A stretch of DNA of 64,000 nucleotides from Lachnospiraceae bacterium oral taxon 500 (GTDB lineage: Bacteria > Bacillota > Clostridia > Lachnospirales > Vallitaleaceae). Numbering within the stretch: the stretch's first letter is position 1; the number at the start of each line of letters is the position of its first letter. Location of the stretch: contig CP027241.1 of assembly GCA_002999035.1 (NCBI GenBank), positions 561,001-625,000 of the forward strand. Direction: 5' to 3'. Both the position numbers and the translations under genes were made by a program. The notes under the pieces were generated by a model, which ran no database searches, had not been told where the DNA came from, and saw only the letters and a list, made by a program, of their open reading frames with translations. Below are positions 22,492-53,526 of this stretch, piece by piece.

Positions 22492-23691
22492 TCAATCCTC
22501 GCCGCTCAGCAAAAAGTCGGCTAAGTGTACGATTTTTACGCCATTGATATTGCCCGCCGCCATTTCATCGAGTGTGACCACATATTTGGGATAGTGGTCT
22601 TTGACAGCCAGCAGGTTGGCGATTTCCCGGTCGGACTCCTCCGGCAGCTGGCGGCAGACCTGAACATAAATCCGGTCACCGCGCCGAACCGCCACAAAAT
22701 CAATTTCTTTCGTGTCATTCTTCCCGATATAAACCTCATAGCCCCGGCGCCGCAGTTCAAAGTAAACGATATTTTCCAGCATCGCCGCTATTGATTTGGG
22801 GTTAAAACCCATAATGCAGTATTTCAGCGAAGAATCTGCCAAGTAAAATTTTTCCTGCGTTTTAAGCACCAATTTACCCTGCAAATCATAGCGCTGACAG
22901 CGATAGATAACAAACGCCTTTTCCAGCCAGTTCAAATAATTGTACACCGCCTCCACCGACAGCGACCGCCCTTCGCTTTTTAAAAACTTAACAATGGCGT
23001 TGGCAGAAAAGGTTTTTCCCACATTTTCCATAATATATTTTACGACTCGCGTGAACAAATCAAAATTCGTAATATTATGCCGTTTCGTAATATCGCCGGT
23101 AATCACCGAGTGATAAATTCCCTCGACGATTTGATAAGCGGAACGTTCGTCAAAGCTGCCCAGCGCTACAATTGGGAACCCGCCCAAGCGCAGATACTCG
23201 TTTAGCAGCTCCTTAACCGACCGGGTATCGGATTTTTTAAACTCCAAATACTCGGCAAAAGACAGGGTATAAACCGGAATCGAAACATACCGTCCGGTTA
23301 AATAAGTGGAAATCTCACTCGACATCAGTTTGGAATTGGAGCCGGTTACGTAAATATCGGTATCGGCGTTTTCCAGCAAGCTATTGACCGCTTTTTCCCA
23401 GCCCTCTATTTCCTGCACCTCATCCAGCAAAAGATAATATCGCCTACCGCTGGTCATCTGCGCTTTAATTCCATGATACATTTCCTTATCCGTCATCCCG
23501 CTGTCAAAATCCTCCGAAGTATAACGCATACTAATAATCTGCTCCGCCGGAACACCGCTCATTTGCAAATCGTCCCGCAGCATTTCCAAAAGTGTAGATT
23601 TGCCGCAGCGCCGGATTCCGGCCAGTATTTTAACCAGCGGCATATCGCGGTAAACTTGCAGTGCCTTGATATATTGCGGTCTTAAAATCAT
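22492..23691 (-). CDS. AAA-type ATPase with DUF4143 domain
   Basis: The 399-residue protein has Walker A GIRRCGKST at about residues 25-33, Walker B YLLLDEVQEIEGWE and sensor region VTGSNSKLMSSE, the pattern of the AAA_14 family. The C-terminal half (ENIVYFELRRRGYEVYIG, KEIDFVAVRRGDRIYVQVC) matches DUF4143, a nuclease-like fold. AGGAGGG precedes the ATG. It is monocistronic with its own promoter. These proteins are widespread and variable in anaerobes; their role is not known. Confidence 0.87.
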   Translation of the reverse strand: MILRPQYIKALQVYRDMPLVKILAGIRRCGKSTLLEMLRDDLQMSGVPAEQIISMRYTSEDFDSGMTDKEMYHGIKAQMTSGRRYYLLLDEVQEIEGWEKAVNSLLENADTDIYVTGSNSKLMSSEISTYLTGRYVSIPVYTLSFAEYLEFKKSDTRSVKELLNEYLRLGGFPIVALGSFDERSAYQIVEGIYHSVITGDITKRHNITNFDLFTRVVKYIMENVGKTFSANAIVKFLKSEGRSLSVEAVYNYLNWLEKAFVIYRCQRYDLQGKLVLKTQEKFYLADSSLKYCIMGFNPKSIAAMLENIVYFELRRRGYEVYIGKNDTKEIDFVAVRRGDRIYVQVCRQLPEESDREIANLLAVKDHYPKYVVTLDEMAAGNINGVKIVHLADFLLSGED

Positions 23692-23856: not shown

Positions 23857-24942
23857 CTATTCTTCCCGTTTAAACCGCCATTTTCGTTCTTGATCCCTCT
23901 GACTGGCATAACTGATGCCAATCCGCCGGTGGCGGCTGATCTTGACCTTGGTGCCGTCCTCCTCCAGCCACAACTCGCCGGTGGAAGAAAGGAACTGACC
24001 GTTTTGCGCTTTGCCGATTTGCATAGCTTTGGTCAGTTTACCCGGCCCGTCATAGCCTTCCACACCCCGAATCAAAACCGCTTCGGGAAAACCGTCCGGC
24101 CCGGTCACCACATTTAATAAATAATGAATCCCATAGCATAAATAAACATACGCCACACCGCCGGTCTGATACATAACTTCAGTTCGGGTCGTCCGGCCCT
24201 TGTGGGCATGACAGGCGGTGTCCTTTTCCCCGTAGTAACATTCCGTTTCAGTAATGCGGCAGCGCAAGACCTCGCCGCTCGCCAGCCGCCGGCACAAAAG
24301 CTTGCCAACCAGCCTCGGCGCCAATTCCTTGGCCGAAGCCTGAAAAAACTCAAGCGGCAACTCCCGCGGCGGGTAAGTTTTCGCTTTTTCCCGGCGCAAG
24401 CTTTGAAAAAAGCACTTTAGCCGCGCCGTACATTCCTCCGCTAAAACGCCGCTCACCACTGCCACCCGGTGATTAAAGCCCGCTACATTCATTAAATCAA
24501 CAATCGTTCCGGCACTGCCGGCCTTAAAATTAGCCGTACCGTAAACCAAGCGCCCCAATCTGGCCTGCACAATCGCACCGGCGCACATCGGGCAAGGCTC
24601 TAACGTCACATACAACACAGCCTCCTCCAGCCGCCAGTCCTGCAAAAAATCAGCCGCTTCGGCCATTGCCAATAACTCGGCATGAGCCAGCACCGAATGA
24701 TCCGTCGCCCGCCGATTATAGCCCCGGCCAATTACCTGCCCCCGCCAGACAATCACGCAGCCAACCGGTGTTTCGCCCAGTGCCTCCGCTTTTTCCGCCT
24801 CAGCCAAAGCTAGCCGCATATACTCCTTATCATGCGGCTCTGCCGAAGCTCCCGGCCGACCATTGCCTGCCGGACTAAAATCTTTTTTTAGCCCTGCCGC
24901 CGGCTTTCCGGCCGGCAAAGGCTGTTTTATTTTCTTTTCCAC
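23857..24942 (-). CDS. fusion of TadA-type tRNA adenosine deaminase and 3-methyladenine DNA glycosylase
   Basis: A single 361-codon frame joins two enzymes. Residues 1-35 are a Pro/Ala/Lys-rich extension. Residues about 36-190 are TadA-like: LALAEAEKAEALGETPVGC, zinc ligand and proton-donor pair in HAEL, and EPCPMCAGAIVQARL. TadA makes inosine at A34 of tRNA-Arg. Residues about 195-361 are an AAG/MPG glycosylase: EFFQASAKELAPRLVGKLL, RITETECYYGEKDTACH with the catalytic Glu, GGVAYVYLCYGIHYLLNVV and EAVLIRGVEG. A GTG at 24942 is the apparent start with a weak ribosome site; an internal start near residue 42 is possible. Both parts keep their key residues. Confidence 0.88.
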   Translation of the reverse strand: MEKKIKQPLPAGKPAAGLKKDFSPAGNGRPGASAEPHDKEYMRLALAEAEKAEALGETPVGCVIVWRGQVIGRGYNRRATDHSVLAHAELLAMAEAADFLQDWRLEEAVLYVTLEPCPMCAGAIVQARLGRLVYGTANFKAGSAGTIVDLMNVAGFNHRVAVVSGVLAEECTARLKCFFQSLRREKAKTYPPRELPLEFFQASAKELAPRLVGKLLCRRLASGEVLRCRITETECYYGEKDTACHAHKGRTTRTEVMYQTGGVAYVYLCYGIHYLLNVVTGPDGFPEAVLIRGVEGYDGPGKLTKAMQIGKAQNGQFLSSTGELWLEEDGTKVKISRHRRIGISYASQRDQERKWRFKREE

Positions 24943-24963: not shown

Positions 24964-25665
24964 TTACAGCAAAGTCAAAAGCCGAAGCAAAAGCTTGGTT
25001 GAATTAACCGCTGCCTGCCGGGTAAATTCATTAAAGTCCATACCGGCCGTATTATCAGCCCGATCGGTAATGGAACGCACCGCCACAAACGGAATCCGGT
25101 TCAGATAACAGACCTGTGCAATCGCCGCACCGCCCTCAATCTCGGCACAGTCACCGGCATAAAACTGATATAATTCCTCCCGCTCCTCGACTTTGGAAAT
25201 AAACTGATCACCTCCCAAAATCCGGCCGGTTACTACTCTTGTCTTAGCATCCAAAACATCGCTGGCTTTTTCCATCAAATGAATCAAATGCGTATCCGCC
25301 TTAAAAACCGAAGTGTCCATCTGCGGGATCTCACCTTTACTGTAACCAAAGGCAACAGCATTGACATCATGCTGGATAAACTCCCGGGAAATAACAACAT
25401 CGCAAATATCCAATTCCGGTGAAATCGCACCGGCTACACCTAAGCTAATGAGGGCATCAATTCTAAAAATATCAATCATAACCTGAGCACAAACGGCGGC
25501 GTTGACCTTACCGAGCCCGGATTTGGCTAAGACAATCTCTCGGCCGGCGAGGCTTCCTCTGATATATTCGGTATGAGCAATACTACGGACATTTGTAACC
25601 GTCATTTGGTCTCTCAGCTTCATTACTTCTTCTTCCATTGCGCCGATAATTCCGACAAGCTTCAT
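24964..25665 (-). CDS. mtnN: 5'-methylthioadenosine/S-adenosylhomocysteine nucleosidase
   Basis: MtnN cleaves MTA and SAH to adenine and the thioribose compound in the activated methyl cycle. The 233-residue product has the catalytic Glu in GIIGAMEEEV, the pocket Glu in CAEIEGGAAIAQVC and the catalytic Asp in RSITDRADNTAG. AAAAGGAGGG precedes the ATG. It has its own promoter; the TadA-glycosylase fusion follows after 21 bases and may be cotranscribed. Confidence 0.96.
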   Translation of the reverse strand: MKLVGIIGAMEEEVMKLRDQMTVTNVRSIAHTEYIRGSLAGREIVLAKSGLGKVNAAVCAQVMIDIFRIDALISLGVAGAISPELDICDVVISREFIQHDVNAVAFGYSKGEIPQMDTSVFKADTHLIHLMEKASDVLDAKTRVVTGRILGGDQFISKVEEREELYQFYAGDCAEIEGGAAIAQVCYLNRIPFVAVRSITDRADNTAGMDFNEFTRQAAVNSTKLLLRLLTLL

Positions 25666-52971: not shown

Positions 52972-53046
52972 CGAGGTGTGGCTCAGCTTGGCTAGAGTAC
53001 CTGATTTGGGATCAGGGGGTCGCAGGTTCAAATCCTGTCACCTCGA
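52972..53046 (+). tRNA. tRNA-Pro(UGG)
   Basis: Acceptor arms CGAGGTG and CACCTCG pair fully. The anticodon loop TTTGGGA between CCTGA and TCAGG reads TGG. The T-arm is GCAGGTTCAAATCCTGT. CCA is not encoded. Confidence 0.95.
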
Positions 53047-53051
53047 TACGT

Positions 53052-53122
53052 GCGTGTGTAGTTCAGTGGTAGAACACTAGCCTTCCAAGCTAGATATGTG
53101 GGTTCGATTCCCATCACACGCT
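53052..53122 (+). tRNA. tRNA-Gly(UCC)
   Basis: GCGTGTG pairs with CACACGC. The anticodon loop CTTCCAA between CTAGC and GCTAG reads TCC. CCA is not encoded. Confidence 0.95.
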
Positions 53123-53158
53123 TTGTCCGGTTTTAAGCGGCGGCTTTCAGTCGGATTT

Positions 53159-53232
53159 GTGCCTGTAGCTCAGTAGGATAGAGCAGTGGCCTTCTAAGCC
53201 ACGTGTCGGGGGTTCGAATCCCTTCAGGCACG
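53159..53232 (+). tRNA. tRNA-Arg(UCU)
   Basis: GTGCCTG pairs with CAGGCAC. The anticodon loop CTTCTAA between GTGGC and GCCAC reads TCT. The discriminator is G. CCA is not encoded. Confidence 0.95.
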
Positions 53233-53265
53233 TTGCTCTGTACCTTTGTCAGGGCAGAATTATGC

Positions 53266-53340
53266 GGTGGGTGTAGCTCAGTTGGTTAGAGCGCTAGGTT
53301 GTGGCCCTAGAGGCCGTGGGTTCGAGTCCCATCTCTCACC
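53266..53340 (+). tRNA. tRNA-His(GUG)
   Basis: A G-1 and C73 pair as usual for His. The anticodon loop TTGTGGC between CTAGG and CCTAG reads GTG. The acceptor GTGGGTG with CTCTCAC has a G-T at 4-69 and a T-T mismatch at 6-67. CCA is not encoded. Confidence 0.93.
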
Positions 53341-53367
53341 CTACTCTTCGGAGTAACAATTTTATAT

Positions 53368-53440
53368 GGGTTATTAGCTCAGACGGTAGAGCACTTGACT
53401 TTTAATCAAGGTGTCCCGGGTTCGAGTCCCGGATAGCTCA
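53368..53440 (+). tRNA. tRNA-Lys(UUU)
   Basis: GGGTTAT pairs with ATAGCTC including two G-T pairs. The anticodon loop CTTTTAA between CTTGA and TCAAG reads TTT. CCA is not encoded. Confidence 0.95.
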
Positions 53441-53444
53441 TTTG

Positions 53445-53526
53445 GCGGATGTGGCGGAATTGGTAGACGCATCAGACTTAGGATCTGACGCCTCACGGCG
53501 TGGGGGTTCGAGTCCCTTCATCCGCA
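53445..53526 (+). tRNA. tRNA-Leu(UAG)
   Basis: GCGGATG pairs with CATCCGC. The loop CTTAGGA reads TAG. A long variable arm (CCTCACGGCGTGG region) marks it as type II. CCA is not encoded. Its last 17 bases are repeated twice downstream in a tandem array. Confidence 0.95.

Follow-up and report, generated by a model that had tools for sequence, protein, structure and literature searches.

Deaminases of the TadA type and methylpurine-DNA glycosylases (MPG/AAG) have already been brought together in a single polypeptide by protein engineers. As the available text of PMC12802905 describes them, the A-to-Y and ACG base editors combine a DNA-active evolved TadA, a Cas9 nickase and an evolved MPG, and convert adenine into other bases by way of hypoxanthine. 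The natural protein considered here likewise carries both enzymes on a single chain, but it differs from the engineered editors in that its deaminase looks like the tRNA-acting type, and in that no DNA-targeting module was found in it, its Pfam matches being to the deaminase and MPG families only.

Each half has close counterparts among well-described enzymes. The deaminase half is 47–50% identical over the domain to the TadAs of B. subtilis (7cph) and S. aureus (2b3j), superposes on them with Foldseek TM(target) values of 0.92–0.97 and shares their HAE/PCxxC zinc site; as expected of a TadA, it is accompanied in the genome by a tRNA-Arg(ACG), and no other TadA was found there. It departs from these relatives in bearing a second enzyme at its C-terminus and, in the protein encoded by the window, an N-terminal extension. 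The glycosylase half shares with human AAG and the TIGR00567 family the fold and seven checked active-site residues; however, it is short (about 165 residues), lacks some 20 residues ahead of the GP-K-L motif and is joined to TadA.

Two further open frames also fuse TadA or MPG to another enzyme, though to functionally unrelated partners: a TadA followed by the methionine sulfoxide reductases MsrA and MsrB (475 aa; L029:1489-2913, plus strand), and a short MPG followed by a BtuR/CobO corrinoid adenosyltransferase (341 aa; L014:967-1989, minus strand). Given such unrelated partners, joins of this kind need not mean coupling. A literature search, which covered few subscription journals and no bioRxiv preprints, returned base-editing papers and unrelated ones instead of any description of a natural TadA–MPG fusion; database entries made by automatic annotation may well include proteins of this kind.

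The fusion gene and its two halves

Table 1. Features of the tadA-mpg locus; positions are counted along the window, the whole stretch of 64,000 nucleotides that was analysed
Feature	Position	Strand	Basis
tadA-mpg fusion gene, 361 aa, GTG start	23857..24942	-	open frame; matches to both families; orthologues
N-terminal extension, residues 1-36	24835..24942	-	orthologue alignment; low model confidence
TadA domain, residues 37-187	24382..24834	-	NF008113 37-188; TadA chain alignment; Foldseek
Linker, about residues 188-193 (~6 residues)	24364..24381	-	unfused TadA ends/MPG starts aligned; pLDDT
MPG/AAG glycosylase domain, short type, residues 194-358	23869..24363	-	PF02245; 3qi5/1f4r alignment; Foldseek
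MTA/SAH nucleosidase gene, immediately upstream of fusion	24964..25665	-	PF01048, NF004079 236.5 bits

A sequence-only reading of this DNA had described a continuous frame of 361 codons encoding one protein made of a TadA and an alkyladenine glycosylase. Both descriptions stand, with the stop codon lying inside the coordinates of Table 1 and the minus strand, which that reading did not give, now added. In hmmscan searches of Pfam, the deaminase half matches PF14437 (residues 38–183, E = 4e-41) and PF00383 (residues 38–136), and the glycosylase half matches PF02245 (MPG; residues 198–358, E = 9e-49, 165.7 bits against a cut-off of 27). The NCBIfam models concur: the TadA equivalog NF008113 scores 166.2 bits against a cut-off of 150, and TIGR00567 (3mg) scores 163.6 bits against 116.35, so that both halves lie above the cut-offs of both collections. 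Every catalytic motif quoted in the sequence-only reading is present in the translation.

Alignment of the TadA domain to TadA chains from B. subtilis, E. coli and S. aureus identifies its zinc-site and catalytic residues as H87, E89, C117 and C120. These are invariant in all three fusions of the genus, and the H-A-E ... P-C-x-x-C columns are invariant across the 120 TadAs aligned. In the MPG half, E234, Y236, H245, Y267, Y270, N277 and R292 align with human AAG (3qi5/1f4r), and these seven residues are again the same in all three fusions. We take their counterparts in the human numbering to be E125, Y127, H136, Y159, Y162, N169 and R182, which presumably supply the active-site Glu, the intercalating Tyr, the base-contacting Tyr, His and Tyr, and the Asn and Arg of that enzyme.

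NG86 dN/dS stands at 0.06–0.13 for the TadA half in all three pairs and at 0.07 for the MPG half in two of the three pairs, the third having a saturated dS and a pN of 0.11; with dS near or beyond saturation, the ratios are rough. These low values speak against the decay of either half, as far as codon comparisons can indicate. In the AlphaFold2 model both domains lie mostly above a pLDDT of 90; the linker block (residues 181–190) has a mean of 74, and residues 1–32 of the N-terminal extension, which the alignment places as longer in the window protein than in both orthologues, fall below 50. From the whole-chain pTM of 0.66 and the weaker linker, we read the model as one in which the orientation of the two domains is not fixed. 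Foldseek aligns the MPG half with human AAG (1bnk) at a TM(target) of 0.76, and other human AAG structures match it as well. By every sequence feature checked, both halves are plain members of the TadA and MPG families.

Distribution and origin

The fusion is present in all three genomes examined from the genus and in none of the 19 genomes from the seven other genera of the family. The fusions of the two congeners (G001 and G002) measure 333 and 336 aa from the first start and share 77% and 72% identity with the protein encoded in the window, and the source genome is a single contig of 3.2 Mb, given as 99.98% complete. Three separate assemblies thus carry the join, which excludes the assembly error that the sequence-only reading had named, along with separate genes in all relatives, among the findings that would refute its claim; within the genus, neither came to pass. 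The fusion is confirmed as real, with chance out of the question.

Elsewhere in the family, all 19 genomes have an unfused tadA; 12 of them also have an MPG match (E <= 1e-8) at a separate location, one of these matches being a fragment; a thirteenth has a weak partial match only, and the four genomes of the genus g8 have no match at E <= 0.001. In wider samples drawn from the order (MPG matches at E <= 1e-22 in 51 of 392 genomes), the class (at 1e-20 in 57 of 391) and the phylum (at 1e-22 in 34 of 398), which share some genomes, the fusion appeared only in the host genus. Fusions were called in these samples from the length of the open frame among the matches listed and by looking for tadA in the loci retrieved, which numbered no more than 30 for each search; a fusion to a distant MPG, or one outside this phylum, could have escaped notice. 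A peptide scan for ETP[IV]GCVI or ECYYGEK recovered 79 loci with two fusions among them, both being those of the congeners. None of the 216 plasmid records and 43 phage records with a match holds at least 80% of the fusion query in one place, and on this ground we rejected a mobile origin of the whole fusion.

The two halves were placed separately in quick, single-gene trees supported by SH-aLRT only, in which many nodes stand at 80–86. In the TadA tree (43 rows, with the 79-locus peptide-scan set left out), the TadAs of the three fusions group together (SH-aLRT 99), and closest to that group stands the TadA of G008, a genome from another genus of the same family (SH-aLRT 81); the tree does not unite the host family. 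The MTA/SAH nucleosidase gene upstream of tadA recurs in both congeners and in G008, the latter being the one case among the 19 family loci outside the genus in a search that covered roughly 1.5 kb at each, apart from one locus with only 178 bases upstream. Based on this nearest relative and the common upstream nucleosidase, the TadA half most likely occupies its original locus.

For the MPG tree, the fusions were trimmed to their MPG halves and L014 to its first 175 residues, and the repeat loci (L001, L062, L063, L179-L181, L189, L235 and L236) were omitted together with duplicate sequences and any protein shorter than 130 aa, leaving 90 rows. Here, the glycosylase halves of the fusions nest within a 25-row group of short MPGs (SH-aLRT 97) whose other members come from 13 other families of the class. 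Of the 12 MPGs in the rest of the family, eight had loci and entered the tree, and all eight lie elsewhere, apart from the short clade. Because the MPG half belongs to this distinct short clade, unlike the other MPGs of the family, the glycosylase half was probably gained horizontally and then joined. The alignment puts both the ends of unfused TadAs and the beginnings of unfused short MPGs only a few residues from the junction; hence, little beyond a stop and a start had to be removed.

On the downstream side, the window carries an AAA_14/DUF4143 ATPase gene (Pfam; 22492-23691, minus strand), and at the same position both congeners have a gene for a protein that we read as NlpC/P60-like. The differing downstream gene is suggestive of an insertion or rearrangement.

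tRNA substrates, repair enzymes and a second tadA-mpg pairing

Whether the genome holds another tadA was a question raised by the sequence-only reading, and at E <= 1 none was found, apart from one match at E 0.04 that we read as a dCMP-deaminase-like protein; nor was there a second MPG at the same threshold. The source genome has 45 tRNA genes by the Rfam tRNA model (with 21 of the 171 first-look candidates unscored), and ARAGORN read the anticodons of 44. Two of these have A34, namely tRNA-Arg(ACG), at locus L147, and tRNA-Leu(AAG), which lies outside the window (G000:C1:2849814-2849898; L155:64-151), and tRNA-Leu(GAG) is absent among the 44. Since A34 tRNAs are present and no second TadA accompanies them, the gene content implies that the TadA half must still perform the tRNA work. 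The window has a cluster of six tRNA genes of its own (Pro, Gly, Arg-TCT, His, Lys and Leu-TAG) at 52972-53526 on the plus strand.

A tRNA-Leu(AAG) is found in 21 of the 22 family genomes, fused or unfused, and therefore does not track the fusion; a link between the fusion and an expanded set of A34 tRNAs was rejected for this reason. According to the available text of a 2026 paper (PMC13249217), bacterial tRNA-Leu(AAG) genes are almost all in Bacilli, with Mycoplasma and Prochlorococcus also named. Judging from its tRNA genes, the host family of Clostridia may be a further lineage that decodes leucine with a wobble inosine.

Among other repair enzymes, endonuclease V was found in none of the three genomes of the genus and in one of the 22 across the family, and Tag in none of the three and in nine of the 22. 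The MPG half is the genus's only enzyme among the MPG, endonuclease V and Tag families.

A second association of the two genes exists as well. Among 94 genomes from 42 families with an MPG locus, of which 84 (39 families) have at least 1 kb on both sides and 10 have less on one side, tadA lies alongside in two groups only: the fusion genus, with three genomes, and the family f63, with six genomes in two genera. In this distant family, 6 of 11 genomes have an MPG match, and in all six (L219, L220, L221, L237, L238 and L239) tadA and the MPG gene share a strand and overlap; the overlap is 8 bases long in the two clearest cases and 17–119 in the rest if the first possible start is used. Overlapping neighbours in so distant a family mean, on the evidence of these gene arrangements, that tadA and mpg came together on at least two occasions. 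If a genome is taken, roughly, to have 2500 genes, the two would be adjacent by chance in about 0.03 of 39 families. The fusion itself prompted the search, and only f63 is therefore independent, which puts the odds of an accident at roughly 1 in 30; the f63 pairing is thus a hint of selection for a tadA-mpg link rather than of accident. In the genus g212 of f63, a small gene precedes tadA, and its product at L219 is MazE/AbrB-like, at a score below the Pfam cut-off.

Readings of the fusion

We favour, at a probability of roughly 0.75, a genus-specific fusion that holds two independent housekeeping enzymes in one chain. A horizontally gained gene for a short-type methylpurine-DNA glycosylase would have landed behind the native tadA, and their joining in one frame would date to the ancestor of the genus. 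In the resulting protein, the N-terminal half would be an ordinary zinc TadA that forms I34 in tRNA-Arg(ACG), and probably also in tRNA-Leu(AAG), and the C-terminal half an ordinary base-flipping glycosylase of the AAG type, clearing DNA of alkylated or deaminated purines. With a short linker between them, the halves would act independently on different nucleic acids, and the benefit of the fusion, if any, would lie mainly in joint expression. Both activities, their independence and the order of events are what we infer from the sequences and trees set out above. Weighing against this reading are the independent tadA-mpg overlap of f63, the nucleosidase neighbour's presence at just one of the 19 family loci outside the genus, the quick single-gene trees with their many nodes at 80–86, and the saturation of dS.

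A functional coupling of the halves is possible. The sequence-only reading had supposed that the deaminase might also touch DNA or nucleosides and that the glycosylase could then clear its product. In one form of coupling, the MPG half would be a guard of the genome, excising in cis the hypoxanthine left off-target by TadA, for example in transcribed or single-stranded DNA, in parallel with the engineered A-to-Y base editors. We regard such a guard as unlikely. Two independent tadA-mpg associations, the genus fusion and the overlapping genes of f63, are consistent with it, as are the failure to find endonuclease V or Tag in the three genomes of the genus and, in the available text of PMC12802905, the editing of DNA through hypoxanthine by fusions of an evolved TadA, nCas9 and an evolved MPG. 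The f63 overlap lends weak backing to some link between the two genes, and the clearing of the product has itself gained no positive support. Moreover, TadA is unfused in every family genome outside the genus, and the g8 genomes have no MPG match at all at the threshold used; there is therefore no general need for a guard.

Wild-type TadA is, to our knowledge, known for RNA and not for DNA. The residue that might have marked a departure from this is Asn at E. coli position 108, which we take to be an editor mutation; however, it occurs in 108 of the 120 TadAs, the three fusions included, in a sample weighted to Lachnospiraceae because most of its TadAs come from the scan that required ETP[IV]GCVI or ECYYGEK. 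It is therefore no fusion-specific sign of DNA activity, and as a DNA-editing signature marking the fusion it was rejected. Nor do the presence of tRNA substrates and the weaker linker, with its unfixed domain orientation, favour the clearing of a deaminase product on DNA, and nothing in the sequence shows that the deaminase half acts on DNA.

A bolder form of coupling, to which we give slightly less credence than to the guard, is a truly bifunctional enzyme: its TadA half would deaminate DNA adenine at some rate and its MPG half would remove the hypoxanthine in cis, the pair protecting the genome or, under stress, making A-to-N mutations in the manner of the engineered TadA-MPG editors, and the f63 genes would be its two-gene version.

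More doubtful again is the proposal that the MPG half has been repurposed, for instance as an RNA-binding or RNA-glycosylase module that aids TadA with its tRNAs. The almost direct joining of MPG to the C-terminal helix of TadA would suit such a role, as would the two A34 tRNAs, Arg(ACG) in the source genome and Leu(AAG) in the family. However, every checked glycosylase residue is kept, the presumed intercalating Tyr included, and tRNA-Leu(AAG), being in 21 of the 22 family genomes whether fused or unfused, does not track the fusion. A literature search for MPG acting on RNA brought up papers on endonuclease V only. That one half is catalytically dead, or that the join is an assembly error, is very improbable in view of the three separate assemblies, the invariant residues and the low dN/dS where it could be computed, with nothing found in its favour.

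The fusion, together with its two-gene counterpart in f63, allows a direct test of whether a TadA and an MPG cooperate, and even if they do not, it is a ready-made compact scaffold of the two enzymes. If the halves cooperate, no earlier natural case is known to us in which the making of inosine in tRNA is tied to the repair of hypoxanthine. If they do not, as the favoured reading of two independent housekeeping enzymes would have it, the genus presents a clean case in which a repair gene, probably of horizontal origin, has been joined to an essential gene that was native.
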